35,818 nucleotides of DNA, from positions 1 through 35,818 of the forward strand of contig CANJOS010000012.1 of the NCBI GenBank assembly GCA_947476015.1, read 5' to 3'. The notes beneath the pieces were generated by a model. The model was not told the DNA's origin. It did no database searches and saw only the letters and a program-made list of their open reading frames with translations. Shown one piece after another: positions 11,453 to 35,459 of this stretch (its first letter is position 1; every line of letters starts with the position of its first letter). Source of the DNA: Comamonadaceae bacterium. Its GTDB lineage: Bacteria; Pseudomonadota; Gammaproteobacteria; Burkholderiales; Burkholderiaceae_C. The translations under genes and the position numbers were made by a program.

Positions 11453-12232
11453 TCAAATCAACGAGCTGTAAGAGCCACCATCTAGTTGCAAATTTTGACC
11501 CGTCATAAAGCCTGATGTAGTCGCACATAAAAATGCACACGCAGCGCCAAATTCCTTGGGATCTCCCATTCGGTTGGCTGGCAGTGTTGCCGCAATTTCG
11601 GAGCGTGCTTGCTCACGCGTGATATCAGAGGCCTTCATCATGCGTTGAACCATGAACTCCTGTCGAGGAGTATCAAAACGCTCAGGCAATAAATTGTTGA
11701 TGGTAACGTTGTCAATTATGGCCTCGCGTGCAAGCGCTTTTGACAATGCGGTTAGGCCCGCACGTGCAGCTGTCGAAAGCCCCATGGCTGCGTGTGGGGA
11801 TTTAACCATGGCCGAAGTGATGTTCACTATGCGACCAAAACGTCTTTGGCGCATACCAGGAATCACTTCACGCATGAGCAAAGCAGCTGAAAGCAAATTA
11901 CTTTCTAGCGCCCCCATCCAAGCGGTGTGATCCCAATCTGAGAGTTGCCCAGGAGGTGGGCCTGCATTGTTATTGATCAAAATGTCGGGCTGTGGGCAAG
12001 CCAATAGCAATTTCAGCCGACCTTCATGGGTATTTAAATCAGCTTGAATGGGCATCACAGCCTGGCCAGTTTCCGTACGTAGCGACTTGGCTGCTTCTTG
12101 CAACTTGTCAAGCTGACGCCCATTGATGTAAACCTCACATCCTTCTTGCGCCAATGCCAATGCACACGCGTAGCCAAGACCTTGCGACGATGCGCACACC
12201 AGTGCTTTTTTATCCTTCAGGCCGAGGTCCAT
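11453..12232 (-). CDS. Atypical short-chain dehydrogenase/reductase
   Basis: This 259-aa protein has the SDR fold: a cofactor loop ASSQGLG (residues 14-20), the NNAGPPPG motif, and a C-terminal FMTGQNLQLDGG. The catalytic block is unusual. In NITSAMVKSPHAAMGLSTAA the conserved Ser is present, but at the Tyr position (13 residues later) there is Ser, and at the Lys position Arg, giving SxxxR instead of YxxxK. A branch of SDR proteins with this change exists, often annotated as 3-oxoacyl-ACP reductase, and its chemistry is unclear. It is the last gene of the minus arm, 17 bp after the dehydrogenase gene, with AAGGAA before the ATG. Confidence 0.85.
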   Translation of the reverse strand: MDLGLKDKKALVCASSQGLGYACALALAQEGCEVYINGRQLDKLQEAAKSLRTETGQAVMPIQADLNTHEGRLKLLLACPQPDILINNNAGPPPGQLSDWDHTAWMGALESNLLSAALLMREVIPGMRQRRFGRIVNITSAMVKSPHAAMGLSTAARAGLTALSKALAREAIIDNVTINNLLPERFDTPRQEFMVQRMMKASDITREQARSEIAATLPANRMGDPKEFGAACAFLCATTSGFMTGQNLQLDGGSYSSLI

Positions 12233-12249
12233 GCTTTATTTCCTTCGAT

Positions 12250-13593
12250 TCAGTGTTGGAGGTCAGCAAAAGATTGACCATTTTTCACCAGCTTTTGCAA
12301 AAGCGATGCGGGCTGCCACCAGACACCATATTCTGAATAAAACTTCTCAATGTCGGCCAGCACTTGAGGTAAACCAATTTTGTCAGCAATGTACATGGGC
12401 CCACCCTGTCTCGCTGGAAATCCGTAGCCTGTGAGATAAGTAATGTCGATGTCACTAGGACGCAAAGCGATACCTTGTTCAAGTAATTTAGCACCTTCGT
12501 TGATCATGCCGTAGAGGCATCGCTTAATGATTTCAGTTTCGCTGATGATGCGCCGCGTAAGTCCTATGCGTGCTGATTCTTCAACGATGAACTTCTCAAG
12601 TTCCGGGTCGCGGTGAGGAGTTCGATCGCCGGCTTCGTAGCGATACCAACCTTTGCCACTTTTTTGACCTAAGCGTCCCATGTCACAAAGCTTCACGATC
12701 AAATCATTCCATCGACGATCGTTAGGCCGCGTGGCCATTTGAGCCTTGCGCGTTTGGAGTCCAACATCATTGCCCCCCATGTCATGAACGACAAAGATGC
12801 CCATGGCGTAGCCAAAACGAGTCAAAGCAGCATCAACTTCGTGCGGCAGTGCGCCGTCTTCCACCAAGAAGTGTGCCTCTCGTGTGTAATTTCTAAAAAG
12901 CGCATTGCCAATAAAACCAGGATAAATTTTGGCCAGCACAGAAATTTTCCCCATGCGGCGTCCTAAATCCATCAACGTAGCTATCACATCGTTCGAAGTA
13001 GCCGCCCCACGCACCACTTCCAATAAACGCATGACATGCGCAGGACTGAAAAAATGTGCGCCTACAACATCTTGTGGACGCTGTGTTACCGCTGCAATTT
13101 GGTCAACATCAAGGCCAGACGTATTGGTTGCCAGGATGGCGCCTGGTTTGCACACCTCGTCCAATTGCCGAAAGATGGATTGCTTGAGACCCATGTCCTC
13201 ATAAACAGCTTCAATCACCATATCGGCATTTTGAATGTTGGTCATTTGAACTGTGCCTTGAATCAAGCCCAAGCACTTGTCCATATCAGATTGAGTTAAT
13301 TTACCGCGTTTCAAGCTGGTTGCGTAGTTATCTTTAACGCGTTGAAGTCCTCTTTGCAGAGAAGGTGCATCTGCATCCACCAGCAACACATTCACGCCCA
13401 TGTTGGCCAGTGACATGGCAATACCACTGCCCATGGTGCCAGCCCCTATGACTGCAACTTGCTGAACAGGTCGCAAAGGGGTGGTCAAAGGAATGTCAGG
13501 AACGTGTGCCGCTTTTTCTGCGGCCATTTTGGCATGCGCCTTGGCACGTGCTAGCGCGTCATCGCTGACATTGAAAAAATCAAAATGGTGCAT
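12250..13593 (-). CDS. 3-hydroxyacyl-CoA dehydrogenase (stand-alone FadB/FadJ-type)
   Basis: This enzyme oxidises (S)-3-hydroxyacyl-CoA to 3-oxoacyl-CoA with NAD. From ATG 13593 it has 447 aa. I chose this start over upstream codons because those overlap the preceding gene and add unrelated sequence. The NAD-binding motif is VAVIGAGTMGSG (glycines 50, 52, 55). Catalytic His180 (GAHFFSPAHVM) and Glu192 are 12 residues apart, as in known dehydrogenases. Two C-terminal helical 3HCDH domains follow (YPGFIGNALF; GYGFPARQGGPMY). It resembles the dehydrogenase part of a FadB/FadJ fusion without the hydratase part, which a separate gene supplies 16 bp upstream. It acts in side-chain beta-oxidation. 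Confidence 0.92.
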   Translation of the reverse strand: MHHFDFFNVSDDALARAKAHAKMAAEKAAHVPDIPLTTPLRPVQQVAVIGAGTMGSGIAMSLANMGVNVLLVDADAPSLQRGLQRVKDNYATSLKRGKLTQSDMDKCLGLIQGTVQMTNIQNADMVIEAVYEDMGLKQSIFRQLDEVCKPGAILATNTSGLDVDQIAAVTQRPQDVVGAHFFSPAHVMRLLEVVRGAATSNDVIATLMDLGRRMGKISVLAKIYPGFIGNALFRNYTREAHFLVEDGALPHEVDAALTRFGYAMGIFVVHDMGGNDVGLQTRKAQMATRPNDRRWNDLIVKLCDMGRLGQKSGKGWYRYEAGDRTPHRDPELEKFIVEESARIGLTRRIISETEIIKRCLYGMINEGAKLLEQGIALRPSDIDITYLTGYGFPARQGGPMYIADKIGLPQVLADIEKFYSEYGVWWQPASLLQKLVKNGQSFADLQH

Positions 13594-13609
13594 GGGATTA
13601 TTTTTTGAG

Positions 13610-14389
13610 TCAGTCCTGAATTCTCTTAGCTTTACCGTCCACAAACTCACGCAAGCGCGCTTCAGCTTCTGGAGGACGAGCACGCGCAGAGTTGAGTTGC
13701 TCAACAAAAAGGCCATTGTCATGCGACATGTCCTGAATACGAGGCAACACATTGATGATCATCCAATTGGTTTCAGCGCTGTTTTTGGCAATGCGATGCG
13801 CAATTTCTTTGGCTTTGCCAAGGGCTTGACCTGCTGGCGCCACATATCGAATTATTTTTTCCTGTAAACCTTCTGTGGCGTTTAAAAGTCTGCCCGTCAG
13901 CATCATGTCCATCATCACCGTGGTTCCCACCACACGTTGAATGCGTACAGTGCCCCCGCCGCCCACAAAAATGCCACGCTGACCCTCAGGCAAGCCAAAG
14001 AAAGAAGACTCGTCGCCGACACGCACATGTGCTGCTGTTGCAAGCTCAAGTCCTCCCCCCACCACTGCGCCATGCAAGGCCGCTACGAAAGGAATAGGTC
14101 CGCGCGCAATCATGTCAAAAACTTCGTGCCAGTTGTGGCGTTTGCGTTTGCGTGGGGGTTTGATCTGCCCAGTGGCTCTGGCCAAAGCTTCACTCAAATC
14201 AAGTCCCGCACAAAAATTAGTGCCATGTCCAAATAAAACAGCCACGTCAGCTTCTTCATGGGCGCGAAACACGGCCACACGCAATGCATCAATCAGGGGG
14301 TCGTTGATACTGTTGCGCTTATCAGGTCGGTTCAAACCAATCAAGGCCACATTGCCTTCCAATTCATAGGTGATGAGAGCTTCACTCAT
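13610..14389 (-). CDS. Enoyl-CoA hydratase/isomerase family protein
   Basis: This 259-aa crotonase-fold enzyme should hydrate 2-enoyl-CoA to 3-hydroxyacyl-CoA. The first oxyanion-hole segment is NFCAGLDLSEA (residues 58-68). The second segment, GAVVGGGLELATAAH, carries Glu115, and GLPEGQRG carries Glu135. Both catalytic Glu are retained with the 20-residue spacing seen in FadB, so real hydratase activity is likely. A basic insertion (PPRKRKRHNW) lies near residues 78-87. It is followed after 16 bp by the matching dehydrogenase gene, making a two-gene equivalent of FadB. Confidence 0.9.
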   Translation of the reverse strand: MSEALITYELEGNVALIGLNRPDKRNSINDPLIDALRVAVFRAHEEADVAVLFGHGTNFCAGLDLSEALARATGQIKPPRKRKRHNWHEVFDMIARGPIPFVAALHGAVVGGGLELATAAHVRVGDESSFFGLPEGQRGIFVGGGGTVRIQRVVGTTVMMDMMLTGRLLNATEGLQEKIIRYVAPAGQALGKAKEIAHRIAKNSAETNWMIINVLPRIQDMSHDNGLFVEQLNSARARPPEAEARLREFVDGKAKRIQD

Positions 14390-14410
14390 AGTTTGTCCAA
14401 AAGTTGAATG

Positions 14411-15382
14411 TCAAAGATCTAACACGAGACTGGCACTGCGGGAACCAGAACAGCACACCATCATGCGGTCGTTGGCGGCTTTTTCAGAATCAGTCAGGAC
14501 CAGATCGCGGTGATCAGGTATTCCTTCTAGCACTTTGACTTCACAAGTGCCGCAGACCCCTTGCTGACATGAGTAGGGAGGTTCAACACCAGCGGCTATC
14601 AGCCCCTCTAGCAGGGTTTGTCCGGGAATGATTTGAATCGTCTGATGACGTCGTGCCAAAGAAACTGAATAACCGCCCTCATTGGCAGGCACATCGATGG
14701 ATGAAAAATATTCGCGATGCACACTCTCAGGCGGCAAGGCAGCCGTAGCCTTTTCATAAGCCTCCAACAAAGGCACAGGACCACAAGCATAGACATGCGC
14801 GCCTGTAGGCATCTTTGCGATCAATTCGTTCAAATTCAACATCTGCCCACCCGGCTCCTGGTCAAAGTTCAAATGAATTTCGACGCCGTTTTGTCCCTCG
14901 TAAGATGCGATCACATCAAGAAATCCGGCATGAGCACGGGTACGGGTGGCGTAATGTAAACGCCACGGGATGCCTAACGCTTTCGATCGGGCCATCATGC
15001 TTAACAAAGGCGTGATGCCTATACCTCCCGCGATGAACACATTGAAACTGGCCGATTCGTTCATTGGAAATAAATTTTTAGGATGACTGACAGTGAGTAT
15101 GTCGCCTGGTCTTAATTTCTCATGCATCTGCTTTGAGCCGCCTCGACTTTTCAGGTCTTTGTTGACGCCTATGCAGTAACGATGCGACTCTTGCGGATCG
15201 TTTAGCAAAGAATAACTGCGCGATAAACCACTGCTCAATTGAATATCGATGTGAGCGCCCGCTGAGAATGCCGGAAGACTCTCGTTTCGATCGAGAGGAA
15301 CCAACTCAAAGCTGAGAATGCTTTGGGCTTCATGAGTGATGGCGCGCAAACGAACTTGCAAAGCAGATTCTGAAATTGTCAT
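14411..15382 (-). CDS. Phthalate-dioxygenase-reductase-type oxidoreductase (flavin, NAD, 2Fe-2S)
   Basis: This 323-aa protein passes electrons from NAD(P)H through flavin to a plant-type 2Fe-2S centre and on to an oxygenase. The flavin motif RSYS is at 55-58, the nucleotide motif GGIGITP at 119-125, and the C-terminal ferredoxin has Cys272, Cys277, Cys280 (CQQGVCGTC) and Cys310 or 311. This domain order is that of PDR and VanB, class IA reductases. The natural partner is the Rieske oxygenase in the same operon, separated from it only by a Bug gene. Its ATG is 7 bp after the Bug stop. Confidence 0.92.
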   Translation of the reverse strand: MTISESALQVRLRAITHEAQSILSFELVPLDRNESLPAFSAGAHIDIQLSSGLSRSYSLLNDPQESHRYCIGVNKDLKSRGGSKQMHEKLRPGDILTVSHPKNLFPMNESASFNVFIAGGIGITPLLSMMARSKALGIPWRLHYATRTRAHAGFLDVIASYEGQNGVEIHLNFDQEPGGQMLNLNELIAKMPTGAHVYACGPVPLLEAYEKATAALPPESVHREYFSSIDVPANEGGYSVSLARRHQTIQIIPGQTLLEGLIAAGVEPPYSCQQGVCGTCEVKVLEGIPDHRDLVLTDSEKAANDRMMVCCSGSRSASLVLDL

Positions 15383-15389
15383 GGCTCAA

Positions 15390-16361
15390 TCAGTCTGGTT
15401 TGAAGCCTGATGCTTTGATGATTGGCTCCCAAGTTGCGAGTTCCTCTCGCTGAGTTTTGGCCATTTCATCGGCATTGCGAAAATGCGGTTCTACCGCCAA
15501 ACGTGTCATGAGGTAATCCTTGACCTGAGGATTAGCGAGAATTTTTTGCAAGGCTTGCTGCACGCGATTCAACTCTGCTTGGGGTGTTTTGGCCGGCGCC
15601 CACATGGCTGTCCATGCGTCACCACTGGACACATTGAAACCTTGCTCAGCAAATGTTGGAATATCTGGCATCAGCTCTGACCTCTTTTCACTGAAGATAC
15701 CAATCACGCGTAATTTTCCTAATTTCTGATGCTTGATCAGTTCGTCCATCAAAGAGATGCCTGCAGGCACATGTCCACCCAATAAATCGGTGATCATGGG
15801 TGGCGTGCCTTTATAGGGCGTCATCGGCAGGTCGATCCCAGCGACCTTGGCAAATTGAACACCCAAGAAATGATTTTGGCCGCTCGTTCCCGGCGTGCCA
15901 AAACTGGCTTTGCTGGGGTTTGCCCTCACCCACTGAACAAATTCTTTGACGCTCTTGACACCGATATCAGCGTTAACGGCCATGCCCAGCGGATAAGAGA
16001 CCAAGCCCGCTACAGGCGCAAAGTCTCTCCATATGTTCCACTTCAATTGAGGCCCAAACACCAACATCTGGAATGTAGGCGTGGCATTGGGTGCAATCAT
16101 GTAAGTGAGACCATCTGGATTGGCTGTCATCAGTGCATCAGCAGCCAAGCGGCCCCCCACGCCAATACGACTTTCAATGATTACCGGTTGCCCCAACTGT
16201 TCTCGCAGTTTTTCTGCCATGTAACGTGCGATTGCATCGGTGCCACCTCCAGCGGGTAGACCCACCAAGATCCGAATGGTGGGCTTGTCTTGTGCCATGC
16301 TCCATGAATGCGCGGACGACATACAAGCGATCATCAATACACTGCGTCTGGAAATCTGCAT
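15390..16361 (-). CDS. Bug/TctC-family substrate-binding protein (minus arm)
   Basis: This is a periplasmic binding protein of 323 aa from ATG 16361. I preferred this start to the TTG at 16373 because GAGGA lies 6 bases before it. The signal peptide is short and hydrophobic (RRSVLMIACMSSAHSWSMA). Family motifs follow: IRILVGLPAGGGTDAIARYM, GQPVIIESRIGVGG, YKGTPPM. It is close to the Bug protein of the plus arm: both have YMIAPNAT, a GD.W block and a C-terminus reading W.PIIKASGF. The two arms thus carry paralogous binding proteins, probably for the pathway substrate or a relative. It sits between the Rieske oxygenase and its reductase. Confidence 0.9.
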   Translation of the reverse strand: MQISRRSVLMIACMSSAHSWSMAQDKPTIRILVGLPAGGGTDAIARYMAEKLREQLGQPVIIESRIGVGGRLAADALMTANPDGLTYMIAPNATPTFQMLVFGPQLKWNIWRDFAPVAGLVSYPLGMAVNADIGVKSVKEFVQWVRANPSKASFGTPGTSGQNHFLGVQFAKVAGIDLPMTPYKGTPPMITDLLGGHVPAGISLMDELIKHQKLGKLRVIGIFSEKRSELMPDIPTFAEQGFNVSSGDAWTAMWAPAKTPQAELNRVQQALQKILANPQVKDYLMTRLAVEPHFRNADEMAKTQREELATWEPIIKASGFKPD

Positions 16362-16391
16362 GCGAATCCTCAATATTTCAGTACAACGTGA

Positions 16392-17627
16392 TCAATGATC
16401 AGCCAGAGTTCGCCAGTCAGCTCCTGCATCGATCACGCCTCCTACTGACTTAATTTGGGGGTAGTTCAATTCAGGATGATGCGCCAAAGTGGGGGCTTTT
16501 CCCTCAGCGAACTCTTTAGCAGCCTTTAACAGCAATTGGCGAACACGTATTACCGCTCCGTCAGCAGCGCATAACTGTTCGTCTGTTCTGTCATAGATCG
16601 GACCTTGGCTCAAAAACATGGCAAAGTCTTCAGTACCCAAGTGTTGCGGAAAGCCTGTTTTATGACCTCGTTTCATGAGGTCGCGATTTTGTCCCCAATT
16701 GTCTTTGGGATCGCCTGGAGGAAGAGGCGGAAAATTCCATACGTCAGGCGAAGCAGACATGACAGTCATGCCCAAGGGACGGTAGGGGTTGTAGTGCACA
16801 AACCACGCGCGATGCGTCACATCATCCACTGGCGTTGAAAAGAAAAGAGTGGTGGGCCCTTGCGCTTCAGGTGGACAAATGATGCCGAACCAAGGCATCA
16901 CAAAGTTATTCACGCGAGCATACACTTTGTTGTCAGGCAAAGTACGAAGTGCAGCATACCGATAGCCGTAAGGCCGCTCTTCGAATTCCAATTTAGGCGC
17001 CAAGGCTTTGGTCATCAGCAAGCGCTCGTTGCCACCGCCTGCTGTCAGTTGTGTGGTGGATTCATGCAAAACACCCACGTGCGAAGAGTCCATGGAGGCC
17101 TCTACGCCTTGCACCCAATTGGTAGGCACCTCCACACTGGTCACGGAGCGCTGATTGACCGGCAGATCCATGAAGGGAAACCCTGGAAATGGGGGTGGCG
17201 TTTCACCCTGTCCAAGCCATACCCAAACAATGCCACCGCGATCAACTGTGGTGTAGCGATTGACTCGCACATGCTTGCAGAACTGGGCTTGGTCACCTGC
17301 ATGATTCGGCGCTTCAATGACCTCGCCTTTGACGTTGAATTTCCAGCCGTGATAAAGACACCTGATGCCATTTTCTTCATTTCTTCCCAAGGCCAATGAA
17401 GCTTTCCGATGAGGACATTGTTCGTCTATGACGCCAGCTGTACCGTCGGTGACTCTGAAAGCGATGAAATTTCGACCTAATAGCCGAATGCGGACAGGCG
17501 CTCCATCTGACTCTAATTTGATGGATGGCACTGCAGGCAACCAATAGTGCTGTCGAATCATTTCACCCATGGGTGCACCGTTTTCAACGCGCGTCAGCAG
17601 ATCGTTGTCTTCTTTACTCAGGGGCAT
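16392..17627 (-). CDS. Rieske non-heme iron oxygenase, phthalate 4,5-dioxygenase/LigXa-like
   Basis: This 411-aa protein is the oxygenase component of an aromatic oxygenase. The Rieske centre ligands are Cys71, His73, Cys90 and His93 (CPHRKAS; CLYHGW). The mononuclear iron site has His183 and His188 with bridging Asp180 (MDSSHVGVLHES), and Asp334 (TEDFAMFLSQGPIYDR) is the likely third ligand. N-terminus, length and the GPIYDR block place it with phthalate 4,5-dioxygenase and LigXa (dehydrodivanillate O-demethylase), which need no small subunit. It therefore either hydroxylates or O-demethylates an aromatic acid. Its reductase is two genes downstream. AGGA lies about 8 bases before the ATG. 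Confidence 0.92.
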   Translation of the reverse strand: MPLSKEDNDLLTRVENGAPMGEMIRQHYWLPAVPSIKLESDGAPVRIRLLGRNFIAFRVTDGTAGVIDEQCPHRKASLALGRNEENGIRCLYHGWKFNVKGEVIEAPNHAGDQAQFCKHVRVNRYTTVDRGGIVWVWLGQGETPPPFPGFPFMDLPVNQRSVTSVEVPTNWVQGVEASMDSSHVGVLHESTTQLTAGGGNERLLMTKALAPKLEFEERPYGYRYAALRTLPDNKVYARVNNFVMPWFGIICPPEAQGPTTLFFSTPVDDVTHRAWFVHYNPYRPLGMTVMSASPDVWNFPPLPPGDPKDNWGQNRDLMKRGHKTGFPQHLGTEDFAMFLSQGPIYDRTDEQLCAADGAVIRVRQLLLKAAKEFAEGKAPTLAHHPELNYPQIKSVGGVIDAGADWRTLADH

Positions 17628-17650: not shown

Positions 17651-18655
17651 TCAGCTTTGAGCGTCAGTTTTAAATGCTTTGCTATAGACACGACGACAGT
17701 TGCATTCAAAGATGTCCTCCTTTTGTGCTGCTGTCAGCCACTCAATGCTTTCAATCACGGGTTTCATATCGTCATAATCTCGTCCACTGATCGGATCACG
17801 CGCACTGCCAGTGCCAGGTTTCTCGGTTCCAAACAAAACGTTTTTTGTCCCTGCAACTTTGAGCAAAAGTTCGATCGCTTCTTTGCTGTAGTTACAGGTA
17901 TCGAAATAAAGTTTTTGAAGTTGTTCGTCAAATGTTTCTTTTTCACCTTTGCGCACATTCCATGATCGAAACCGGCCCATTTGGTAAGGGATCGCACCGC
18001 CTCCATGCGCCACCACAATTTTCAATTGTGGATATCGGTCCAAAGTTTTTGCACCCAAAAGGGAAATGATGGCGATACTTTCCTCATTGATGAATTTGAG
18101 GGTATAGGACTCACGCGCACTGCAACTGCCCGCAGAATGAATCAAACCTGGCACGTCAAGTTCTGTCATGGCCTCGTAAAGGGGATGCCAAAATGGATCA
18201 CCCAACCCCGGGGGGGTGGGCCCCGCTCCTTCTGTAGGGTCTGGGTTGATCAAGCAACCCACAAAACCCATTTCAGTGACGCATCGGCGAAGTTCAGGAA
18301 TTGCGCGCAACTCTAAAGATTCCTCCATGTACTGAGGTAAGCCGGCGACGCCTCTGAAACGATCCGGAAACAACTTAACAAACTCTGCAATCAAATTATT
18401 GCAATGCATTGACCACAACTCTGTCACGCGCCCTGGCTTAACTGAATGCATTTGCAAATAGGGACGAGGCGAGATGAATTGCACATCGGTGCCAACAGCA
18501 TCCATGGAACGGACCAACTCTTCTGCTGCTTTTTTGACTGAAGCCTCTGGAATTTTGGGCAATGTGTTGGGATTAGCCCGACCCCCTACAAGTTCCGCCA
18601 TGAAACGAAAACTTTCAGGGGGCATGACGAGATGCGCATGTGAATCAATGATCAT
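17651..18655 (-). CDS. Amidohydrolase-family protein, LigJ (4-oxalomesaconate hydratase)-like
   Basis: This is a 334-aa TIM-barrel metalloenzyme. Metal ligands are His6 and His8 (DSHAHL), His173 (GLIHSAG) and Glu278 (VLFGTEKPG); His217 lies in AHGGGAIPYQMGRF. Most relatives have Asp at the last site. Glu there, together with the DPISGRDYDD block, is the pattern of LigJ, whose zinc ligands I recall as His6, His8, His178 and Glu284. LigJ hydrates 4-oxalomesaconate to 4-carboxy-4-hydroxy-2-oxoadipate in the protocatechuate 4,5-cleavage and gallate pathways. The next enzyme, LigK, is of the RraA-like type, and three such genes lie in the opposite arm. Decarboxylases (LigW type) are relatives but keep Asp. 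Confidence 0.83.
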   Translation of the reverse strand: MIIDSHAHLVMPPESFRFMAELVGGRANPNTLPKIPEASVKKAAEELVRSMDAVGTDVQFISPRPYLQMHSVKPGRVTELWSMHCNNLIAEFVKLFPDRFRGVAGLPQYMEESLELRAIPELRRCVTEMGFVGCLINPDPTEGAGPTPPGLGDPFWHPLYEAMTELDVPGLIHSAGSCSARESYTLKFINEESIAIISLLGAKTLDRYPQLKIVVAHGGGAIPYQMGRFRSWNVRKGEKETFDEQLQKLYFDTCNYSKEAIELLLKVAGTKNVLFGTEKPGTGSARDPISGRDYDDMKPVIESIEWLTAAQKEDIFECNCRRVYSKAFKTDAQS

Positions 18656-18677: not shown

Positions 18678-19073
18678 TTAAGAAGACGAGGTAACGAAGG
18701 CGGTCACTTCTAACTGCAACACCATGCCATGCTGAAGTTCGTGCATCACAATGTGGCGTGCGGGCCGATCCTCTGGGTCTGGAAAGCGTGAAACCCAAGC
18801 CTCGTTGATGGCATCTCGCATGGCGCCATCTTGTAGTGTGATATGTAACTTGACAACATGTGCAAGCGTCGCGCCTGCAGAGGCTAGCAAAGCGTCCATG
18901 TTGGAAAATGCCAGACGAACTTGCGTTTGAGGATCTGCAGGCAATTGACCATTGGCAGGGTCTTTACCAGAAATGCCAGACGAACAAATCAGGGGACCTA
19001 CGCGCGCACCCAATGGAATCGGTGCGTTGTGACCTACTCCAGGCACATTGACAGAACGTTTGCCAGTCATCAT
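18678..19073 (-). CDS. RidA/YjgF family protein
   Basis: This is a small protein of about 131 aa from the ATG pair at 19068-19073; a longer frame from 19121 would overlap the regulator gene. The fold is RidA-like: GPLICSSGISGKDPANGQ, then QVRLAFSNMDALLASAGATL, and RPARHIV with the Arg that binds the carboxylate in active RidA deaminases. RidA proteins hydrolyse reactive enamine/imine intermediates; one branch acts as 2-aminomuconate deaminase in meta-cleavage pathways. Its place between the regulator and the LigJ-like gene suggests a pathway role, perhaps on an enol or imine product of ring cleavage. It is co-transcribed, 22 bp after the regulator gene. Confidence 0.85.
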   Translation of the reverse strand: MMTGKRSVNVPGVGHNAPIPLGARVGPLICSSGISGKDPANGQLPADPQTQVRLAFSNMDALLASAGATLAHVVKLHITLQDGAMRDAINEAWVSRFPDPEDRPARHIVMHELQHGMVLQLEVTAFVTSSS

Positions 19074-19854: not shown

Positions 19855-19881
19855 GAACGAAATTATGCAACAAAACATCTG

Positions 19882-19891
19882 TGGTATGCAA
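19882..19891. promoter_or_regulatory. Candidate GntR operator 1
   Basis: TGGTATGCAA, a near-palindrome of the TGG-N4-CAA type, lies 28 bases upstream of the GntR start. A related site in opposite orientation lies at 19974-19983. The preceding 9-mer ATCTGTGGT (19877-19885) recurs at 20012-20020. FCD-type GntR proteins bind short palindromes with similar edges. Position suggests self-repression. The role is inferred. Confidence 0.4.
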
Positions 19892-19958
19892 TAAATTCAG
19901 AAAAACCTATAAATATCAGTATTTACCCTTTATTTTCCTTATTTAGACTCGTGGTGTA

Positions 19959-19987
19959 TTGAAATGACAAGTTTTGTATGCCAGAAT
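19959..19987 (+). promoter_or_regulatory. Candidate promoter of the plus arm with GntR operator 2 inside it
   Basis: TTGAAA (19959-19964) and CAGAAT (19982-19987) are 17 bases apart, a fair sigma-70 match. TTGTATGCCA (19974-19983), which on the other strand matches operator 1 at 8 of 10 positions, lies within the spacer and touches the -10 box. A repressor bound there would block the plus arm until an inducer binds. The promoter match is weak by itself; the overlap raises its interest. Confidence 0.35.
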
Positions 19988-20067
19988 ATTTCTAAATTAT
20001 CTATTGAATTTATCTGTGGTGTTCTAAATTACACTGATTTCAACCCCCATACAAGGTTTCATGTCCC

Positions 20068-28773: not shown

Positions 28774-29991
28774 ATGAGTTTGAACGGATCCGCCTACATC
28801 GTCGGAGCCTATGAGCACCCTACTCGGAAGGCAGACAATCTGTCAGTCGTGCGTTTACACGCCGATGTGGCAAAGGGGGCGCTGGAAGACGCTGGGCTGT
28901 CTAAAGCTGACATTGATGGCTATTTTTGTGCCGGAGATGCACCAGGTTTAGGCACCACCACCATGGCCGAATATTTGGGGCTGAAATTGCGCCATGTTGA
29001 CTCCACAGAATGTGGTGGTTCTGCGCCGATACTGCACGTGGCTCATGCCGCTGAAGCCATTGCGGCAGGTCGATGCAATGTTGCTTTGATCACCTTGGCC
29101 GGTCGCCCTCGTGCGCAAATGGCTGCGGCACAAGCTGCAGCCAAAGATGGCAAAGGTGGCAAAGCACCTTTGGCGTTGAAACCGCCCGATCCAGATGCGC
29201 CTGAATTGGCATTTGAATTGCCCTATGGTCCTGCAACCCAAAACCTCTATGCCTTGGTCGCCAAGCGTCATATGCATGAATTTGGCACCACCAGTGAGCA
29301 ATTGGCATGGATCAAGGTGGCGGCTTCTCACCATGCACAACACAACGTCAATGCCATGCTCAGAGATGTGGTCACCGTTGAAGACGTGATTCAATCGCCC
29401 ATGGTCAGCGATCCATTGCATCGCCTCGATTGCTGTGTCATGAGCGATGGCGGGGGCGCGCTGATTGTGGCTCGGCCAGAAATTGCTCGTGAGATAGCGC
29501 GTAAAAATGGACGGGCATTGGTCATGGTGAGGGGCACAGGAGAAGCTCCCAAGCATGGCATGGGGGGGCAAATTGATTTGACGTATTCTGCTGCTGCCTT
29601 TTCAGGTCCGATGGCCTTTGCAGAGGCCGGCCTCACGCCGCAGGATATTCAATATGCATCCCTTTACGACAGCTTCACCATCACTGTGCTGATGCAACTT
29701 GAAGATCTCGGCTTTTGCAAAAAAGGACAAGGTGGAAAATTTGTCATGGATGGCAATCTTATTTCTGGCATTGGCAAGCTTCCCTTCAACACCGATGGCG
29801 GCGGACTTTGCAACAACCATCCAGCAAACCGGGGTGGCATGACCAAGGTCATTGAAGCTGTTCGCCAATTGAGAGGCGAAGCACATTCCTCTGTGCAAGT
29901 TCCCAACTGTTCATTGGCATTGGCCAGTGGCATTGGTGGCGCATTGGCCTCTCGCCATACTGCCGCCACCCTGATTTTGGAAAGACGCTGA
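28774..29991 (+). CDS. SCP2-type thiolase/thiolase-like aldolase
   Basis: This 405-aa protein belongs to the SCP2/non-specific lipid-transfer thiolase branch. It retains the first cysteine, Cys80 (DSTECGGSAP), and His349 (CNNHPANRGG); the usual second catalytic Cys near the C-terminus is not in its standard context (ALASGIGGALASRHTAA). It could cleave a 3-oxoacyl-CoA with CoA, or act as a retro-aldolase like Ltp2 of steroid side-chain degradation. The second option is raised by the DUF35 gene one base downstream, since Ltp2 works with a DUF35 partner. AGGAAA precedes the ATG by 8 bases. Confidence 0.87.
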   Translation: MSLNGSAYIVGAYEHPTRKADNLSVVRLHADVAKGALEDAGLSKADIDGYFCAGDAPGLGTTTMAEYLGLKLRHVDSTECGGSAPILHVAHAAEAIAAGRCNVALITLAGRPRAQMAAAQAAAKDGKGGKAPLALKPPDPDAPELAFELPYGPATQNLYALVAKRHMHEFGTTSEQLAWIKVAASHHAQHNVNAMLRDVVTVEDVIQSPMVSDPLHRLDCCVMSDGGGALIVARPEIAREIARKNGRALVMVRGTGEAPKHGMGGQIDLTYSAAAFSGPMAFAEAGLTPQDIQYASLYDSFTITVLMQLEDLGFCKKGQGGKFVMDGNLISGIGKLPFNTDGGGLCNNHPANRGGMTKVIEAVRQLRGEAHSSVQVPNCSLALASGIGGALASRHTAATLILERR

Positions 29992-29992: not shown

Positions 29993-30373
29993 ATGAGAAA
30001 AATACCTGCACCCCGCGTACTTCCAGAAACGATTGAATTTTGGAAAGCAGCTGATGAAGGTCGTTATGTGGTGAAAAAATGCACCGCATGTCAGCAAGTT
30101 CACTATTACCCCCGAGACATCTGTCCTTTTTGCTTGAGCGCAGAGACCGTATGGCAAGAATCAGCCGGAACAGGCATTGTGTATTCATTCAGCACCATGG
30201 GCAAAGATGAGTCTGCCTACACCGTGGCCTACATCACATTGGACGAAGGTTTCACGGTCATGAGCAATTTGGTGGAATGTGATCCGGAACAGGTCAAATT
30301 GGGTCAAAAAGTACGCGTTGTTTTTCAACCCACAGAGGGTGGACATGCCGTTCCCATGTTCACTCCTGTGTAA
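29993..30373 (+). CDS. DUF35 Zn-ribbon/OB-fold protein
   Basis: This 126-aa protein has a rubredoxin-like zinc ribbon with Cys30, Cys33, Cys44 and Cys47 (CTACQQVHYYPRDICPFC), then an OB-fold (GIVYSFSTMGKDESAYTVAY). Such proteins bind acyl-CoA and pair with SCP2-type thiolases or Ltp2-type aldolases, positioning the CoA tail. Its start lies one base after the thiolase stop, implying coupled translation and a fixed complex. Confidence 0.9.
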   Translation: MRKIPAPRVLPETIEFWKAADEGRYVVKKCTACQQVHYYPRDICPFCLSAETVWQESAGTGIVYSFSTMGKDESAYTVAYITLDEGFTVMSNLVECDPEQVKLGQKVRVVFQPTEGGHAVPMFTPV

Positions 30374-30384: not shown

Positions 30385-31587
30385 ATGACGACTGAAAGAA
30401 AAGGCCCCCTGTCTCGATTCACAGTTTTGGATGCCACACGCGTTCGTGCAGGTCCTACTGCCATTCGAACTTTCGCCGATCTGGGTGCAAGGGTGATCAA
30501 GCTGGAAATTCCGTCAGGTGCGCCAGGGGGCGACGACATGATTGGCGGTCGAGATCACAATCGCGCTGACTATGAAAATTTGCATCGTAACAAAGAGAGC
30601 CTCACGCTCAACATGAAGGAGCCTGAGGGACAGGATATTCTGGCGAAGTTGGTCAAAAAAGCCGATGTCTTTATAGAAAATTTTCGACCCGATGTAAAAC
30701 ATCGCTTGGGCATCGGTCCCGAACAACTTCATCTAATCAACCCACGGCTGGTTTATGCCAGTATTTCTGGTTTTGGACAAGATGGTCCCTATGCCAAGTG
30801 GCCAGGCTTTGACTCCATTGCACAAGGCATGGGCGGTTTGATGAGTGTGACTGGCAAGCCCGGTGAAGGTCCCATGCGCGTTGGCATTCCCATTGCCGAT
30901 TTATGTTCTGGTCATTTTTGTGCTCAAGCCATTATGGCGGCATTGCTCGAGAGGGAAGAGAGTGGCAAAGGACAATGGGTGCATACCTCTTTGTTGGAAT
31001 CACAAATCGCCATGCTTGATTTCCAAGCTGCGCAGTGGTTGATCGATCACAAAGTTCCAAAATCTACGGGCAACGAACATCCTTTGACGGTGCCTACCGG
31101 CGTTTTTGAAACCAGTGATGGTCATCTGAATGTAGCGGCCATTGGCCAAGGCATGTGGAAACGCCTTTGCGCAGCACTTGAACTTCCACAGCTGATTGAT
31201 GAACCTGGCATGGGTTCAGACCCTGAGCGTGTCACCAACAGAGCCAAGGTCAATGCAGCGGTCGGCGCAGCTTTCAAAATGAGAAGTACATCCGCATGGA
31301 CAAAAATTCTCATTGATGCTGGTGTGCCATGCGGTCCCATCTACAACATCGACAAAATGTTTGAAGATGCACAAGTTCAACATCTAGGAATGGCCCGTAC
31401 CCTGCATCACCCAGATTTGGGAGATATCCAAGTTGTGAATTTACCCATGCAATTTTCTTCTCATCCCCGAAACAAAGGTCCCATGAAAGCTGCACCTGAG
31501 CAGGGTGACCACACCGTCGCCATTCTGCACGAATTAGGCTATAACAATTTACAAATCGATCAACTGCGCGAGCAGTTTGTTGTCTGA
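30385..31587 (+). CDS. CaiB/BaiF family CoA-transferase (class III)
   Basis: This 400-aa class III CoA-transferase moves CoA between carboxylic acids. The N-terminal LDATRVRAGPTAIRTFADLG and IKLEIPSG blocks and the catalytic Asp172 (GIPIADLCSG), which forms the acyl-enzyme, are present, as are ENFRPDV and SISGFGQDGPY. It probably activates the pathway acid with a CoA taken from a product such as acetyl- or succinyl-CoA. With the NDP-forming synthetase the arm has two CoA-activation routes, perhaps for two acids at different stages. Confidence 0.93.
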   Translation: MTTERKGPLSRFTVLDATRVRAGPTAIRTFADLGARVIKLEIPSGAPGGDDMIGGRDHNRADYENLHRNKESLTLNMKEPEGQDILAKLVKKADVFIENFRPDVKHRLGIGPEQLHLINPRLVYASISGFGQDGPYAKWPGFDSIAQGMGGLMSVTGKPGEGPMRVGIPIADLCSGHFCAQAIMAALLEREESGKGQWVHTSLLESQIAMLDFQAAQWLIDHKVPKSTGNEHPLTVPTGVFETSDGHLNVAAIGQGMWKRLCAALELPQLIDEPGMGSDPERVTNRAKVNAAVGAAFKMRSTSAWTKILIDAGVPCGPIYNIDKMFEDAQVQHLGMARTLHHPDLGDIQVVNLPMQFSSHPRNKGPMKAAPEQGDHTVAILHELGYNNLQIDQLREQFVV

Positions 31588-31614: not shown

Positions 31615-32616
31615 ATGGCCAAATTAGTTGCAGCATTCGGCTCCTCACACAGCATCATGCTTGTCTCGCAACGAGAAGACTGGCAGCATGGTTTCAAAGT
31701 CATTGACCTTAAAAATCCCCACTATTTCGACAAGGACGGACTTCAAACTAACTACGCGGCTCTGCTGGCCAGTGCGCCGCCAAACACAGAGGCCATGGTG
31801 ACACCCGAGAAAATGGGAGAACGCTATGACGCAGCACAAGCCAGCATGGATACGTTACATGAACGTATCGTCGCTGCAAAACTTGATGTGCTTCTGATCG
31901 TCGGAGACGATCAAAATGAATTGTTTCGGACCAGCAACAATCCCGCCATGGCCATTTTTTATGGCCCCAGCATTCGCAATACGGCGCGTGAGCCTGCTAA
32001 CCCCTCAGATCCCTGGCCTAAGACTGCAAGGATGTGGCGACATGAGCCAGAAGTAGACAAAGAATATCCTGTGAAAAGCGATTTGGCGGAATGGCTGATT
32101 CGTCAACTCTGCGATCGTGAGTTTGATATCGCAGCGATGGACGGCTTGACCTTAGGACAGTCAGAAGGGCATGCGTTCCAGTTTGTTCACCGTAGACTTT
32201 TGAAGGAACATGAAATCCCTGTCATTCCAGTCATTCTGAACACCTTTGATCCGCCCAACCAACCCACACCTAAACGATGTGTTGCGCTAGGAAAAGCCTT
32301 GCGCGAATTGATAAGCTTGTGGCACGAAGACATTCGTGTGGGCGTCATTGCATCGGGTGGTTTAAGTCATTTTGTAGTTGATGAAGCGCTTGACCATCAA
32401 GTCTTGAACGCCATCCGTGACAAAGATTCTCAAACCTTGTCCAGCTTTGACCCCAAACATTTACAAGCAGGCAGTTCAGAGATTCGGAATTGGTTGGTGG
32501 TGGGGGAAATGGCCAAAGCTCTCGATCTCGAATGGGTAGAGTACATCCCAGGTTATCGAACTCCGGCTTTAACAGGAACTGGGCTGGCATTTGCCGCTTG
32601 GAAAACAATTGATTAA
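31615..32616 (+). CDS. LigB-type (class III) extradiol ring-cleavage dioxygenase homologue with altered metal site
   Basis: This 333-aa protein matches the LigB superfamily. His12 (GSSHSIML) is the first metal ligand, Glu290 (AGSSEIRNWL) the third, and His252 (ASGGLSHF) the catalytic His. At the second ligand, where LigB has His61 in a NDH context, this protein reads VGDDQNELF, so Gln100 (or Asp99) takes its place. Other family members with a DDQ motif exist, so this is a branch feature and not a mutation in this copy. It would open a catechol- or gallate-like ring next to a hydroxyl, or catalyse a related step. It has no small LigA subunit gene nearby. Confidence 0.85.
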   Translation: MAKLVAAFGSSHSIMLVSQREDWQHGFKVIDLKNPHYFDKDGLQTNYAALLASAPPNTEAMVTPEKMGERYDAAQASMDTLHERIVAAKLDVLLIVGDDQNELFRTSNNPAMAIFYGPSIRNTAREPANPSDPWPKTARMWRHEPEVDKEYPVKSDLAEWLIRQLCDREFDIAAMDGLTLGQSEGHAFQFVHRRLLKEHEIPVIPVILNTFDPPNQPTPKRCVALGKALRELISLWHEDIRVGVIASGGLSHFVVDEALDHQVLNAIRDKDSQTLSSFDPKHLQAGSSEIRNWLVVGEMAKALDLEWVEYIPGYRTPALTGTGLAFAAWKTID

Positions 32617-32637
32617 CTTAACTATCTCAACAATTTT

Positions 32638-33324
32638 ATGAATGACCCTCAGGTACAACGTTTGCGCCGTTTAGATGTGTGTGCTGTCTCTGATGCACTG
32701 GATAAATTGCAACTCAGTGGTGTGGTCACAGGTTTGCCTCTTCGAAGCAATGGACCAGGAGGCAACAGTCGAATCGCTGGTCGAGCTGTGACCATGAAAG
32801 TAGGTCCTGGCGCACCGCCATCTGGACCCCCTGTGCATTTAGGTTGCACCGCCATTGAAAACTCAAACAGTGACAATGTCATTGTGGTGGAACAACGCTC
32901 TGGCGTTGAAGCCGGATGTTGGGGCGGACTCCTGACGCTAGGCGCCAAGGTGAGAGGCGTTGCGGGTGTCGTTGCTGATGGTCCATTGCGCGATGTAGAC
33001 GAAGCCATCGCCTATGAATTTCCAATCTACAGTCGAAGCCTGACCTCTAGAACAGCCAGAACGCGAGTGGTTGAATTAGGTACACAAATTCCCATCACGG
33101 TCGGTGCAACGGCCGGAGGAGAAGTTGTAGTTCAGCCAGGTGACTATGTGCTGGCTGACCGAAGTGCCGTGATTTTCATTTCTTCAACTGACATCGAACG
33201 AGTTCTGGATACTGCCGAGATGATTGTGGCCAAAGAAGCGGTCATGGCCAAAGCTATTTTGTCAGGCACGCCCATTGCCAAGGTGATGGGCGGCAATTAC
33301 GAACAGATGCTTGAAAGACAATGA
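32638..33324 (+). CDS. RraA/LigK-like aldolase family protein 1
   Basis: This 228-aa protein is of the RraA/HMG-aldolase fold, which includes 4-carboxy-4-hydroxy-2-oxoadipate aldolase (LigK/ProA), an enzyme giving pyruvate and oxaloacetate. It has SDALDKL near the start, WGGLLT (95-100) and Arg118-Asp119 in DGPLRDVDE, the R-D-x2-E pattern reported for HMG/CHA aldolases. The C-terminal GDYVLADRSAV departs from the usual GD-x-DGV. It is the first of three adjacent paralogs and overlaps the next by 4 bases. Confidence 0.85.
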   Translation: MNDPQVQRLRRLDVCAVSDALDKLQLSGVVTGLPLRSNGPGGNSRIAGRAVTMKVGPGAPPSGPPVHLGCTAIENSNSDNVIVVEQRSGVEAGCWGGLLTLGAKVRGVAGVVADGPLRDVDEAIAYEFPIYSRSLTSRTARTRVVELGTQIPITVGATAGGEVVVQPGDYVLADRSAVIFISSTDIERVLDTAEMIVAKEAVMAKAILSGTPIAKVMGGNYEQMLERQ

Positions 33325-33995
33325 TGAAAATGCAAGATTCACTGGACGTCAATGTCCAACGCGCACTCAAACTTGATACGGCCACATTGTCCGATGCTTT
33401 GGACAAATTAGGAATCGTGGGGCAATGTTACAAAATCAAACCTCGCGATACTAATTTTAGAATGGCTGGCAGAGCTTGGACTTTGAAGTACGGCCCTTCA
33501 GGGAAACCTTGCGGGACCGTAGGTGACTATATCGATGATGTAGCGCCGGGCAGTGTGATTGTTCTTGACAACAATGGTCGCGATGATTGCACAGTGTGGG
33601 GCGACATCCTCACAGAAATTGCACACCGACGAGGCATTGCGGGCACTGTCATCAATGGCATCAATCGCGACACACACTTATGCCTTTCTTTAGGCTATCC
33701 TATTTTCTCAAAAGACAATTGGATGCGAACTGGCAAAGATCGCGTTCAAGTTGAGGCCATTGGCATTCCTGTGAACATCGGGGAGGCTCGTGTAGCGCCA
33801 GGCGATTTACTCAAAGGGGATACAGACGGCGTGGTTGTCATTCCAAAAGAACACGAAAATGATGTTCTCAATGTGGCAGAAGAAATAGAAGCGGCAGAAA
33901 ATAAGATCAGAGATGCTGCAAGATCTGGGATGCGATTAGACGAAGCGCGGCAGCAGTTTAAATATCATCAACTTCAAACAAGAGTCACCAAATGA
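33321..33995 (+). CDS. RraA/LigK-like aldolase family protein 2
   Basis: This 224-aa paralog has TLSDALDKLGI near the start, VWGDIL (92-97) and Arg116-Asp117 in NGINRDTHL. The third residue after the R-D pair is Leu, not Glu, so the full R-D-x2-E pattern is lost. The C-terminal GDTDGVVVIP is canonical. It begins inside the stop of paralog 1 (ATGA) and its own stop overlaps paralog 3, so all three are translationally coupled. Activity may need a partner subunit, or its substrate differs. Confidence 0.85.
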   Translation: MMKMQDSLDVNVQRALKLDTATLSDALDKLGIVGQCYKIKPRDTNFRMAGRAWTLKYGPSGKPCGTVGDYIDDVAPGSVIVLDNNGRDDCTVWGDILTEIAHRRGIAGTVINGINRDTHLCLSLGYPIFSKDNWMRTGKDRVQVEAIGIPVNIGEARVAPGDLLKGDTDGVVVIPKEHENDVLNVAEEIEAAENKIRDAARSGMRLDEARQQFKYHQLQTRVTK

Positions 33996-34651
33996 ATGCT
34001 GTGAATCCATCACTCACCACTCGTTTAAATGTGCCTCGTTTAAGTTCAGATCTGATTGCCAAAGCCAAATCTTTGCCAACCGCCACACTGCATGAAGCGG
34101 GCAAAAAAATAGGGGCATTGCCATCGGCCATTAAACCTGTATCAAGTGTGTTTAGAACTTGTGGACAAGCTCTCACCGTTCACTCACCTGGGGGCGATAA
34201 TTTGTGGCTGCACCGAGCACTTGCCATTGCTCAAGAAGGCGATGTCATGGTTGTTTTCGCCAATGGCGCTTACGAACATGGCTATTGGGGTGAAATTATG
34301 GGCACCATGGCCCAATCTCGTGGCCTCGCCGGCCTTGTCATTGATGCCTGCGTAAGAGATGGCGCACTGATTTCAACAATGGGGTTTCCAGTATTTTCAA
34401 GGGGGTTGTGCATCCGAGGCACTGGTAAGGACTTTGGCGCAACGGGTTGGATTAACCACCCTATCATGATTGGCGACGTCATCGTTCATGCGGGCGATTT
34501 GATAGTGGGTGATGGAGATGGTGTGGTCTCGATACCTCAATCTAAAGCGCAAGAAATCATTGAAGCCGGAATTCTCAGAGAAGTAGAAGAAGCGGCCATT
34601 TGCGAAAGAATTAAATCTGGTGAAACGACCATGGCCATTTATGGCTGGTAA
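33992..34651 (+). CDS. RraA/LigK-like aldolase family protein 3
   Basis: This 219-aa paralog is the closest to true HMG/CHA aldolases in layout: TATLHEAGKKIGALP near the start, the HGYWGEIMGTMAQSRGLAG block (96-114), Arg122-Asp123 in DACVRDGAL, FPVFSRGLCIRGTGK, and GDGDGVVSIP. It carries Glu101 in WGE but lacks the Glu three residues after R-D. It is the best candidate for the catalytic LigK equivalent, accepting the product of the LigJ-like hydratase. It overlaps paralog 2 by 4 bases. Confidence 0.87.
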   Translation: MNAVNPSLTTRLNVPRLSSDLIAKAKSLPTATLHEAGKKIGALPSAIKPVSSVFRTCGQALTVHSPGGDNLWLHRALAIAQEGDVMVVFANGAYEHGYWGEIMGTMAQSRGLAGLVIDACVRDGALISTMGFPVFSRGLCIRGTGKDFGATGWINHPIMIGDVIVHAGDLIVGDGDGVVSIPQSKAQEIIEAGILREVEEAAICERIKSGETTMAIYGW

Positions 34652-34658
34652 AACATTC

Positions 34659-35459
34659 ATGACCAACCCTTTATCTTTCGCAACTTCTCCCATTTTGGAA
34701 ATTGAAGCAGGCGTGGCCACAATCACATTGAATCGACCTGCCCAACGAAATCGTTTAAACAACGAGGACTTGAAAACATTATTGGCTCATTTTGAGACAA
34801 TCAATGAAGACGCCAGTGTTCGTGTGATGAAGCTCACAGCCAGTACAAAAGACCAACCCAAACCTGTTTTTTGCGCTGGCTATGACATTGGCGAATTTGA
34901 TGCATCTACGGCAAATGCAGTGGCTTTTGAAGCCGTTCCCGATGCCTTGGCACACGTCAGACCTGTCACCATCTGCGCCTTGAATGGCAGTGTGTACGGC
35001 GGTGCCACTGATTTAGCTTTAGCTTGTGATTTGCGGATTGGATTAGAAGGCATAGAGTGGCGCATGCCTGCCACAGCTCTCGGGCTTCATTACTACCCCA
35101 GTGGTTTACAAAGATATCTCAGCCGTTTCGGTGTCTTGGCGACGCAAAGAGCTTTTTTAACCGGTCGCCCATTTACATGGCAGCAATTGGAAAAGATCGG
35201 CCTGTTTGAAGCATTTTGCAACGAATCAAATTGGCATGCACATTTAGACAGCCTGACCAAAGACATTTGGGCATTGGCCCCTATGGCCGTTCAGGAAACC
35301 AAAAAATCTTTGAATGAAATAATTGAAAATCGATCAGACTTAGAGACTTTACGTGCCCGAGAAGAATTGACAAGTCAAAGTGAAGATTTTGCTGAAGGAA
35401 GACGGGCGTTCATGGAAAGACGAGCCCCCAAGTTTGGAACTCATGGCAAGCTCACATGA
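34659..35459 (+). CDS. Enoyl-CoA hydratase/isomerase family protein lacking both catalytic Glu
   Basis: This crotonase-fold protein is about 266 aa from ATG 34659, chosen because it lies 7 bases after the preceding stop; in-frame upstream codons overlap that gene. The oxyanion segment FCAGYDIGEF (71-80) and the glycine pair 114-115 are present, but at the two Glu positions it has Asp118 (GGATDLALA) and Thr139 (RMPATALG). Standard hydration needs both Glu, so it is probably an isomerase, hydrolase, decarboxylase or C-C bond lyase of the same fold. It is the last full gene of the plus arm. It differs clearly from the minus-arm hydratase. Confidence 0.85.
   Translation: MTNPLSFATSPILEIEAGVATITLNRPAQRNRLNNEDLKTLLAHFETINEDASVRVMKLTASTKDQPKPVFCAGYDIGEFDASTANAVAFEAVPDALAHVRPVTICALNGSVYGGATDLALACDLRIGLEGIEWRMPATALGLHYYPSGLQRYLSRFGVLATQRAFLTGRPFTWQQLEKIGLFEAFCNESNWHAHLDSLTKDIWALAPMAVQETKKSLNEIIENRSDLETLRAREELTSQSEDFAEGRRAFMERRAPKFGTHGKLT

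Follow-up and report, generated by a model that had tools for sequence, protein, structure and literature searches.

The window analysed here is the whole of contig CANJOS010000012.1 (contig C12; 35818 bp) in the genome (2.8 Mb, 79% complete) of a Polaromonas relative, and its main feature is a divergent catabolic cluster at 11453-35459 in which proteins related to the hydrolase LigY and the dioxygenase LigZ are encoded together with a beta-oxidation set. The 23 open reading frames (ORFs) are all intact and in the order given by a preliminary description of this DNA, which had been made from the sequence without database searches; nine genes lie on the minus strand and 14 on the plus strand, and the two arms diverge from 19854/20068. 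With gene starts refined by eye from homologues, intergenic spacing ranges from -4 to 52 bp, with the exception of a control region of 213 bp. Because the window is a whole contig of an incomplete genome, the plus arm may extend past 35459. The enzyme inventory of the preliminary description stood at the level of enzyme classes, which are backed by Pfam and NCBIfam profile matches, and failed at the subfamily level for the hydrolase that it had named LigJ-like; beyond its list, the cluster contains genes for a Rid protein, two TctC solute-binding proteins and an SDR dehydrogenase. The features are as follows (fractions refer to the 28 sister clusters in other genomes described below, percentages are identities, and C47 is a further contig of the same genome):

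11453-12232, minus: SDR dehydrogenase (Pfam adh_short_C2); orthologue in 19/28; diol or alcohol oxidation is conceivable
12250-13593, minus: 3-hydroxyacyl-CoA dehydrogenase (3HCDH_N and 3HCDH); the ORF runs to 13752, homologues place the start at 13593
13610-14389, minus: enoyl-CoA hydratase ECH1 (PRK08150, 354.9 bits, cut-off 232); 53% to the ECH of the SYK-6 DDVA cluster
14411-15382, minus: oxygenase reductase with NAD domain and C-terminal 2Fe-2S domain (Fer2 and NAD_binding_1)
15390-16373, minus: TctC solute-binding protein (family match); in 17/28 a LigXa orthologue, not found in the window, lies next to it
16392-17627, minus: Rieske oxygenase with LigXa_C domain (PF19301 and PF00355), not a LigXa orthologue
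17651-18655, minus: LigY-type amidohydrolase-fold C-C hydrolase, by scores, motif and tree
18678-19073, minus: Rid-family protein (Ribonuc_L-PSP)
19096-19854, minus: GntR/FCD regulator (GntR and FCD)
19855-20067, no strand: divergent control region with a conserved core and two operator-like sites
20068-22227, plus: nucleoside diphosphate (NDP)-forming acyl-CoA synthetase (profile match); 43% to the SYK-6 DDVA-cluster synthetase, 42% to the C47 copy
22235-23428, plus: PimC-like acyl-CoA dehydrogenase (profile match; PimC-type model below cut-off)
23438-24565, plus: PimD-like acyl-CoA dehydrogenase (profile match; PimD-type model below cut-off)
24618-25595, plus: TctC solute-binding protein (family match)
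25619-27244, plus: GMC alcohol oxidoreductase, accessory (family match); 10/28
27253-28737, plus: aldehyde dehydrogenase, accessory (family match); 9/28
28774-29991, plus: SCP2-type thiolase (PRK08142, 696.4 bits, cut-off 462)
29993-30373, plus: DUF35/OB partner of the thiolase (OB_ChsH2_C and zf-ChsH2)
30385-31587, plus: class III CoA-transferase (CoA_transf_3)
31615-32616, plus: LigZ-type class III extradiol dioxygenase (LigB domain, tree); 35% to SYK-6 LigZ
32638-33324, plus: Rra1, RraA-fold, G-X20-RD-X2-E motif; 83% to the C47 copy, 54% to the SYK-6 DDVA-cluster copy
33321-33995, plus: Rra2, RraA-fold, D-X20-RD motif; 89% to the C47 copy, 70% to the SYK-6 DDVA-cluster copy
33992-34651, plus: Rra3, RraA-fold, E-X20-RD motif; closest to LigK among the RraA proteins of the cluster
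34659-35459, plus: enoyl-CoA hydratase-like protein ECH2 (ECH_1)

The NDP-forming synthetase presumably resembles the feruloyl-CoA synthetase FerA; for FerA as 'ADP-forming' no paper was found.

LigY is the C-C hydrolase in the biphenyl pathway for 5,5'-dehydrodivanillate (DDVA). The hydrolase encoded at 17651-18655 scores 270.5 bits against the solved LigY (5vn5) and 217 against LigJ, shares with LigY an E-x-P-G-x-G-S stretch at which LigJ differs, and in a quick tree of 31 rows (left from a pool of 76 plus 5 after removal of redundancy at 88%) groups with LigY and apart from LigJ, including the LigJ of the same genome. The LigY/LigJ split is fully supported, and the window protein falls into a sister subgroup of the LigY of strain SYK-6, to which it is 43% identical. 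No LigJ orthologue was found in the cluster by score, motif or tree; the true LigJ lies on contig C3, where genes for LigA, LigB, LigJ (667 bits to solved LigJ), LigK (393.8 bits on TIGR02798, cut-off 304.5), a 4-oxalomesaconate tautomerase and a LigI-like amidohydrolase are grouped. The protocatechuate/gallate 4,5-cleavage pathway (LigAB, LigJ, LigK) has its own separate cluster there, and the window proteins are its distant superfamily relatives. In the same tree, the amidohydrolase of a compact TctC-Rieske-reductase-LigB-Rid-LigJ-like-HpaI aldolase-SDR cluster without beta-oxidation genes (genome G325, locus L033, 7283-14701) groups with LigJ; this cluster was rejected as DDVA-like and perhaps represents a related pathway for a different compound.

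The LigB-domain dioxygenase of the window groups with LigZ and not with protocatechuate dioxygenase: in a quick tree of 62 rows (left from a pool of 185 plus 5 after removal of redundancy at 80%) it lies in the LigZ half, although long branches weaken the root region. For the motif counts below and for both trees, tblastn rows with stops or low coverage had been discarded.

A scan of genome contigs with a LigB alignment, of which the best 80 loci were kept, identified 28 loci in 27 other genomes with a LigB of at least 65% identity, each in this cluster type and with at least two further cluster genes beside LigB, several being fragmentary or missing genes. The recurrence of the gene set around the LigB orthologue is more than chance would give. 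In these sister clusters, in which the second arm was fetched where contigs allowed and fragments were scored as misses (identity thresholds 33-55%, mostly 50), LigB is present in 28, DUF35 in 27, the thiolase in 26, the Rieske oxygenase, GntR and the CoA-transferase in 25 each, LigY in 24, the hydroxyacyl-CoA dehydrogenase, ECH1, Rid, Rra1 and Rra2 in 23 each, the synthetase, both acyl-CoA dehydrogenases and Rra3 in 22 each, ECH2 in 21, SDR in 19, the reductase in 18, LigXa in 17, GMC in ten and the aldehyde dehydrogenase in nine. The genes are mostly 55-94% identical to those of the window. LigY and the thiolase are kept together in 23 of the 28, LigY being missed mostly at contig ends, and 23 of the 27 genomes have a LigY orthologue of 74-92% identity; in one of the other four (G817, L058) Rieske and Rid are present and LigY, acyl-CoA dehydrogenase and CoA-transferase are absent in the stretch seen. 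The LigXa counted here is an additional Rieske oxygenase, encoded between the TctC and reductase genes, that is 56-60% identical to SYK-6 LigXa (57-67% by another alignment for three clusters). Hosts among the best 80 loci include Limnohabitans, Variovorax, Polaromonas, Ramlibacter, Hydrogenophaga, Caldimonas and Malikia, as well as the alphaproteobacterium Acidocella aquatica; environmental isolates that carry the cluster are Variovorax sp. YR216 and Limnohabitans sp. T6-20. The Polaromonas cluster (G294) lacks GMC and has the aldehyde dehydrogenase reduced to an 85-residue piece. In an order-level sample, a LigB of at least 65% identity was present in 2/399 genomes, that of the window included. 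One Comamonadaceae metagenome-assembled genome (G802) has two copies of the cluster type (L039/L184 and L042/L193), one of which has no RraA genes within 10 kb of LigB, and on the same contig an extra LigY context (L194) with an RraA pair.

The DDVA cluster of SYK-6 was found in genome G549, in which one protein is 100% identical to solved LigY. It comprises a TonB-receptor end, a synthetase, an ECH, a thiolase (33%), a DUF35 protein (29%), an aldehyde dehydrogenase (37%), a BD-FAE-type esterase, a major facilitator superfamily (MFS) transporter, LigZ, Rra1, Rra2, LigY, LigXa and MarR (percentages to the window proteins; others are listed above). In PMC6874591, as far as its available excerpt goes, ddvT, ddvK, ddvR, ligXa, ligZ and ligY form one SYK-6 cluster, with which the TonB-receptor end, MFS, MarR and LigXa_C Rieske genes in G549 agree; for presumed locus tags next to ddvT (SLG_07650) no paper was found. 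Common to this cluster and the window are a LigXa_C Rieske oxygenase, a LigZ-type dioxygenase, a LigY-type hydrolase, adjacent Rra1 and Rra2, synthetase, ECH, thiolase and DUF35; the window adds a pair of acyl-CoA dehydrogenases, the hydroxyacyl-CoA dehydrogenase, CoA-transferase, GMC, Rra3, ECH2 and SDR. DDVA carries no oxidisable side chain, and because side-chain genes are nevertheless present in the SYK-6 cluster, its natural substrates may be longer dimers. A second SYK-6 locus (L148) combines LigY-LigZ-Rra1-Rra2-Rra3 with a further LigXa_C Rieske oxygenase and a gene resembling those for acyl-CoA dehydrogenases. A benzoylsuccinyl-CoA thiolase, BbsAB, acts on an aryl beta-ketoacyl-CoA and likewise consists of an SCP2-type thiolase and a DUF35 partner; its models match the window pair, which stays under both NCBIfam equivalog cut-offs (133.4 versus 750 and 29.4 versus 250) and stands in another operon. 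For the mhqPOD DDVA pathway of Paenibacillus sp. B2 the same chemistry, i.e. demethylation, extradiol cleavage, C-C hydrolysis, hydration and 4-hydroxy-4-methyl-2-oxoglutarate (HMG) aldolase, has been proposed in PMC12673573, in the excerpt of which the demethylase and dioxygenase are tabulated as unrelated to LigX/LigZ and side-chain genes are not mentioned.

The three RraA-fold proteins score 65.2, 76.8 and 152.6 bits on the LigK model TIGR02798, all below its cut-off; on a second LigK model, NF006731, the best of them, Rra3, is a near miss with 173.8 bits against 179. Among distinct matched strings, G-X20-RD-X2-E is present in 41/41 for Rra1, D-X20-RD in 38/38 for Rra2 and E-X20-RD in 24/26 for Rra3 (105 of 138 strings, at 45% identity or more; the 33 below, mostly cross-hits, were omitted, and overlapping loci of one genome may contribute two strings). 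The first two are what we take to be the exact forms of the two motifs of RraA-fold aldolases, and the E form of Rra3 matches neither. According to the available excerpt of PMC5065237, metal binding and catalysis require one or the other of two motifs, and most homologues have one of them. As judged from the strings, the predicted metal-binding and catalysis motif of the HMG/4-carboxy-4-hydroxy-2-oxoadipate (CHA) aldolases is present in both Rra1 and Rra2. The idea that Rra1 is no longer a working aldolase, since it lacks the Asp of D-X20-RD, was dropped because all Rra1 strings hold the alternative motif.

In the stretches fetched, Rra1 and Rra2 occur together in 20 of the 26 non-window LigY contexts that were read, and at least one of them in 22, compared with 0/7 LigJ contexts for either count (Fisher p = 4e-4 and 8e-5, respectively, uncorrected for kinship and therefore overstated, as related genomes are not independent and L212, for example, is nearly SYK-6 again). 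Outside the 26, L076, L079, L089 and L116 have both genes each and L034 has Rra1 only; L143, L144, L145 and G704:C60 were not read. In the DDVA route proposed in PMC12673573, hydration of 4-carboxy-2-hydroxypentadienoate (CHPD) precedes HMG aldolase, and Table 2 in the excerpt available enters the CHPD hydratase of SYK-6 as not identified. A class III CoA-transferase (35-37%) lies near LigB-Rid-LigY in four sphingomonad loci (L076, L079, L089 and L092) that show little or none of the beta-oxidation set, and for this reason the CoA-transferase together with ECH2 is another candidate for CHPD hydration.

A second cluster of the same genome, on C47 (L036, 3400-18162), is of the LigXa-LigZ-LigY kind, has diverged and carries a separate RraA pair. 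It encodes LigXa (58%, truncated by the contig end), LigY (55%), LigZ (40%), Rra1, Rra2, a reductase, a synthetase, two acyl-CoA dehydrogenases, an ECH and a GntR/FCD regulator; an NMT1-type binding protein is encoded there too, next to transporter-like genes. Between C12 and C47, Rra1 and Rra2 are 83% and 89% identical, whereas LigB, LigY, the synthetase and the dehydrogenases are 31-44% identical. This would be expected if the two pathways differ in substrate and share the acid that is released, and the high identities suggest a fairly recent exchange of the RraA pair.

Between the GntR and synthetase genes, TTGTGTATGCCASAAT-like operator-like sites lie at 19975-19983 (TGTATGCCA) and, as a degenerate partner, at 19880-19890. 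The core TGTATGCCA is present within one mismatch in 24/24 regions, window included, and exactly in 18; the 44 core matches compare with 2.7 on average, and never more than 7, in 50 dinucleotide shuffles. These regions are 24 of 36 extracted, one per cluster, earlier counts having held four second loci of the same clusters. Scanning the control region for exact palindromes yielded no clear candidate; the site was found via a palindrome chosen from the list of that scan and refined on the same sequences, so that these statistics are partly circular and descriptive. The cluster is probably under the control of the GntR protein. An exact copy of the core (TGGCATACA) lies at 2491-2499, near the start of the window, flanked by a LysR gene (1563-2474) and a TctC gene.

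Combining these data, we suggest, with a probability of about 0.55, that the cluster is a LigX-LigZ-LigY-type catabolic island for 5-substituted vanillates, most likely 5-5'-linked (biphenyl) lignin phenylpropanoid dimers, the side chains of which would first be shortened by beta-oxidation. The gene families, the affinities to LigY and LigZ, the conservation and the presence of LigXa in sister clusters are read from the sequences themselves, whereas the control by GntR, all substrates and the sequence of reactions are what we infer. In this model, (i) TctC proteins would bind the acids for uptake, (ii) GMC and aldehyde dehydrogenase, where present, would convert a terminal CH2OH to COOH, (iii) the NDP-forming synthetase or the CoA-transferase would make the CoA ester, (iv) the acyl-CoA dehydrogenase pair, ECH1, the hydroxyacyl-CoA dehydrogenase and thiolase-DUF35 would remove two carbons as acetyl-CoA from the C3 side chain to give a DDVA-like aroate, (v) the Rieske oxygenase and reductase (in the relatives also LigXa) would O-demethylate it to a catechol, (vi) the LigZ-type enzyme would cleave the catechol ring beside the biaryl bond and (vii) the LigY-type hydrolase would split the cleavage product into a 5-carboxyvanillate-like acid and CHPD. 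CHPD may then be hydrated, with Rra1 or the CoA-transferase and ECH2 as candidates, and cleaved to two pyruvate by an RraA-fold aldolase (Rra2, perhaps Rra3), while a LigW2-like 5-carboxyvanillate decarboxylase on contig C114 (399.4 bits to 4inf/4qrn, 397.1 to LigW2) could convert the aromatic half to vanillate for the protocatechuate 4,5-cleavage genes on C3. The affinity to LigY, the LigZ-type LigB, LigXa in the sister clusters, the side-chain genes of SYK-6 and C47, the association of Rra1/Rra2 with LigY and the decarboxylase all support this biaryl model. One divergent unit that couples ring cleavage with side-chain beta-oxidation, as the preliminary description had proposed, is supported, and its methoxylated or carboxylated lignin-type substrate is probable.

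Several observations weigh against this model. In enzyme affinities, the window LigB belongs to a sister group of LigZ and not to LigZ proper, the Rieske oxygenase is just 29% identical to LigXa (and 36% to another Rieske oxygenase of SYK-6) with a putative phthalate 4,5-dioxygenase among its best solved relatives, and there is no LigXa orthologue in the window cluster; of the 28 sister clusters, seven that were read at that stretch also have no LigXa and four do not cover it. In membership, the window has GntR and TctC proteins where SYK-6 has the MarR regulator DdvR, the MFS transporter DdvK and the TonB receptor DdvT. In distribution, 47 of the 52 loci below 65% identity, the rest of the best 80, show no LigY accompanied by an RraA pair, many being short; GMC and aldehyde dehydrogenase are missing from most sister clusters; no RraA genes lie near LigB in G823 and in one of the two G802 clusters; and synthetase, ECH, thiolase or acyl-CoA dehydrogenase genes accompany just 10/26 non-window LigY contexts (0/7 for LigJ), to which the overstated Fisher values have to be added.

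Alternatively, the ring substituent could be an alkyl or aralkyl group, e.g. from a beta-5 unit or a prenyl/alkyl protocatechuate, so that the LigZ- and LigY-type enzymes would release an aliphatic or aralkyl acid that is activated by the synthetase or CoA-transferase and then beta-oxidised, i.e. with the side chain processed after ring cleavage. LigY chemistry liberates R-COOH, synthetase and acyl-CoA dehydrogenases have diverged between C12 and C47 about as far as LigY and LigB, and a PimC/PimD-like pair would suit a larger or branched acyl-CoA; given that the LigXa orthologues of the sister clusters and the set of genes in the DDVA cluster of SYK-6 point to biaryl substrates, we nevertheless consider this scheme unlikely. 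Less plausible still are two pathways that share merely a regulator, a LigX/Z/Y-like ring route for a carboxylated monomer (some hydroxy-isophthalate such as 5-carboxyvanillate) and, unconnected with it, beta-oxidation of a phenylalkanoate or dicarboxylate: the putative phthalate 4,5-dioxygenase among the closest solved relatives of the Rieske oxygenase and the Rieske-reductase-LigB-Rid cluster of G325 would fit, but the joint retention of LigY and thiolase and the recurrence of similar side-chain genes in SYK-6 and on C47 argue for a single pathway. Finally, the proposal of the preliminary description of a sequential action of LigJ and LigK on 4-oxalomesaconate from a gallate-type cleavage of a side-chain-bearing aromatic is hardly credible and was rejected, for although the hydrolase and RraA proteins belong to the same superfamilies as LigJ and LigK and Rra3 lies barely under one of two LigK models, the hydrolase sits on the LigY branch, no RraA protein reaches a LigK model, the LigZ-side LigB scores just 27.5 and 23.5 bits to protocatechuate and gallate dioxygenases, the genome has its true LigJ and LigK on C3, and the lack of LigI in the window says nothing on gallate because a LigI-like gene lies with LigA/B/J/K on C3.

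Elsewhere in the window, a transposase-like protein end with integrase core domains (rve, rve_3) lies at the contig start (6-455), and two FAD-dependent oxidoreductases (PF12831) and a TctC gene lie to the left of the cluster (3699-8392). No RNA family reached the gathering score in the window and no tRNA was found there.

Returning to the biaryl model, the cluster is best read from its genes as a form of the LigX-LigZ-LigY biaryl pathway in Burkholderiales that carries its own side-chain beta-oxidation, with relatives of the known biphenyl-lignin enzymes in an arrangement not met with in the literature searched. The preliminary description knew of no pathway with this gene set, and this holds for the open-licence literature, in which no description was found among the papers listed, subscription papers lying mostly outside that search. 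More tentatively, and with doubt prevailing, DDVA could be formed along the way and not be the natural point of entry: LigX-LigZ-LigY clusters would have evolved for 5-5' phenylpropanoid dimers, Comamonadaceae-type bacteria would have a self-contained version with CoA-dependent beta-oxidation of C3 chains before biaryl cleavage, and Rra1-Rra2 would be a dedicated CHPD module in which one member (or the CoA-transferase with ECH2) is the CHPD hydratase. Units joined 5-5' by a carbon-carbon bond resist degradation, and in SYK-6, where the route has been studied, it is followed from the already trimmed dimer DDVA. If the biaryl model is correct, an island conserved in many Burkholderiales would combine the shortening of side chains with demethylation, the opening of the biaryl ring and the release of pyruvate, the known hosts of this chemistry would be widened and culturable test strains gained, and the dimers that are taken and the enzyme that hydrates CHPD would become testable questions.

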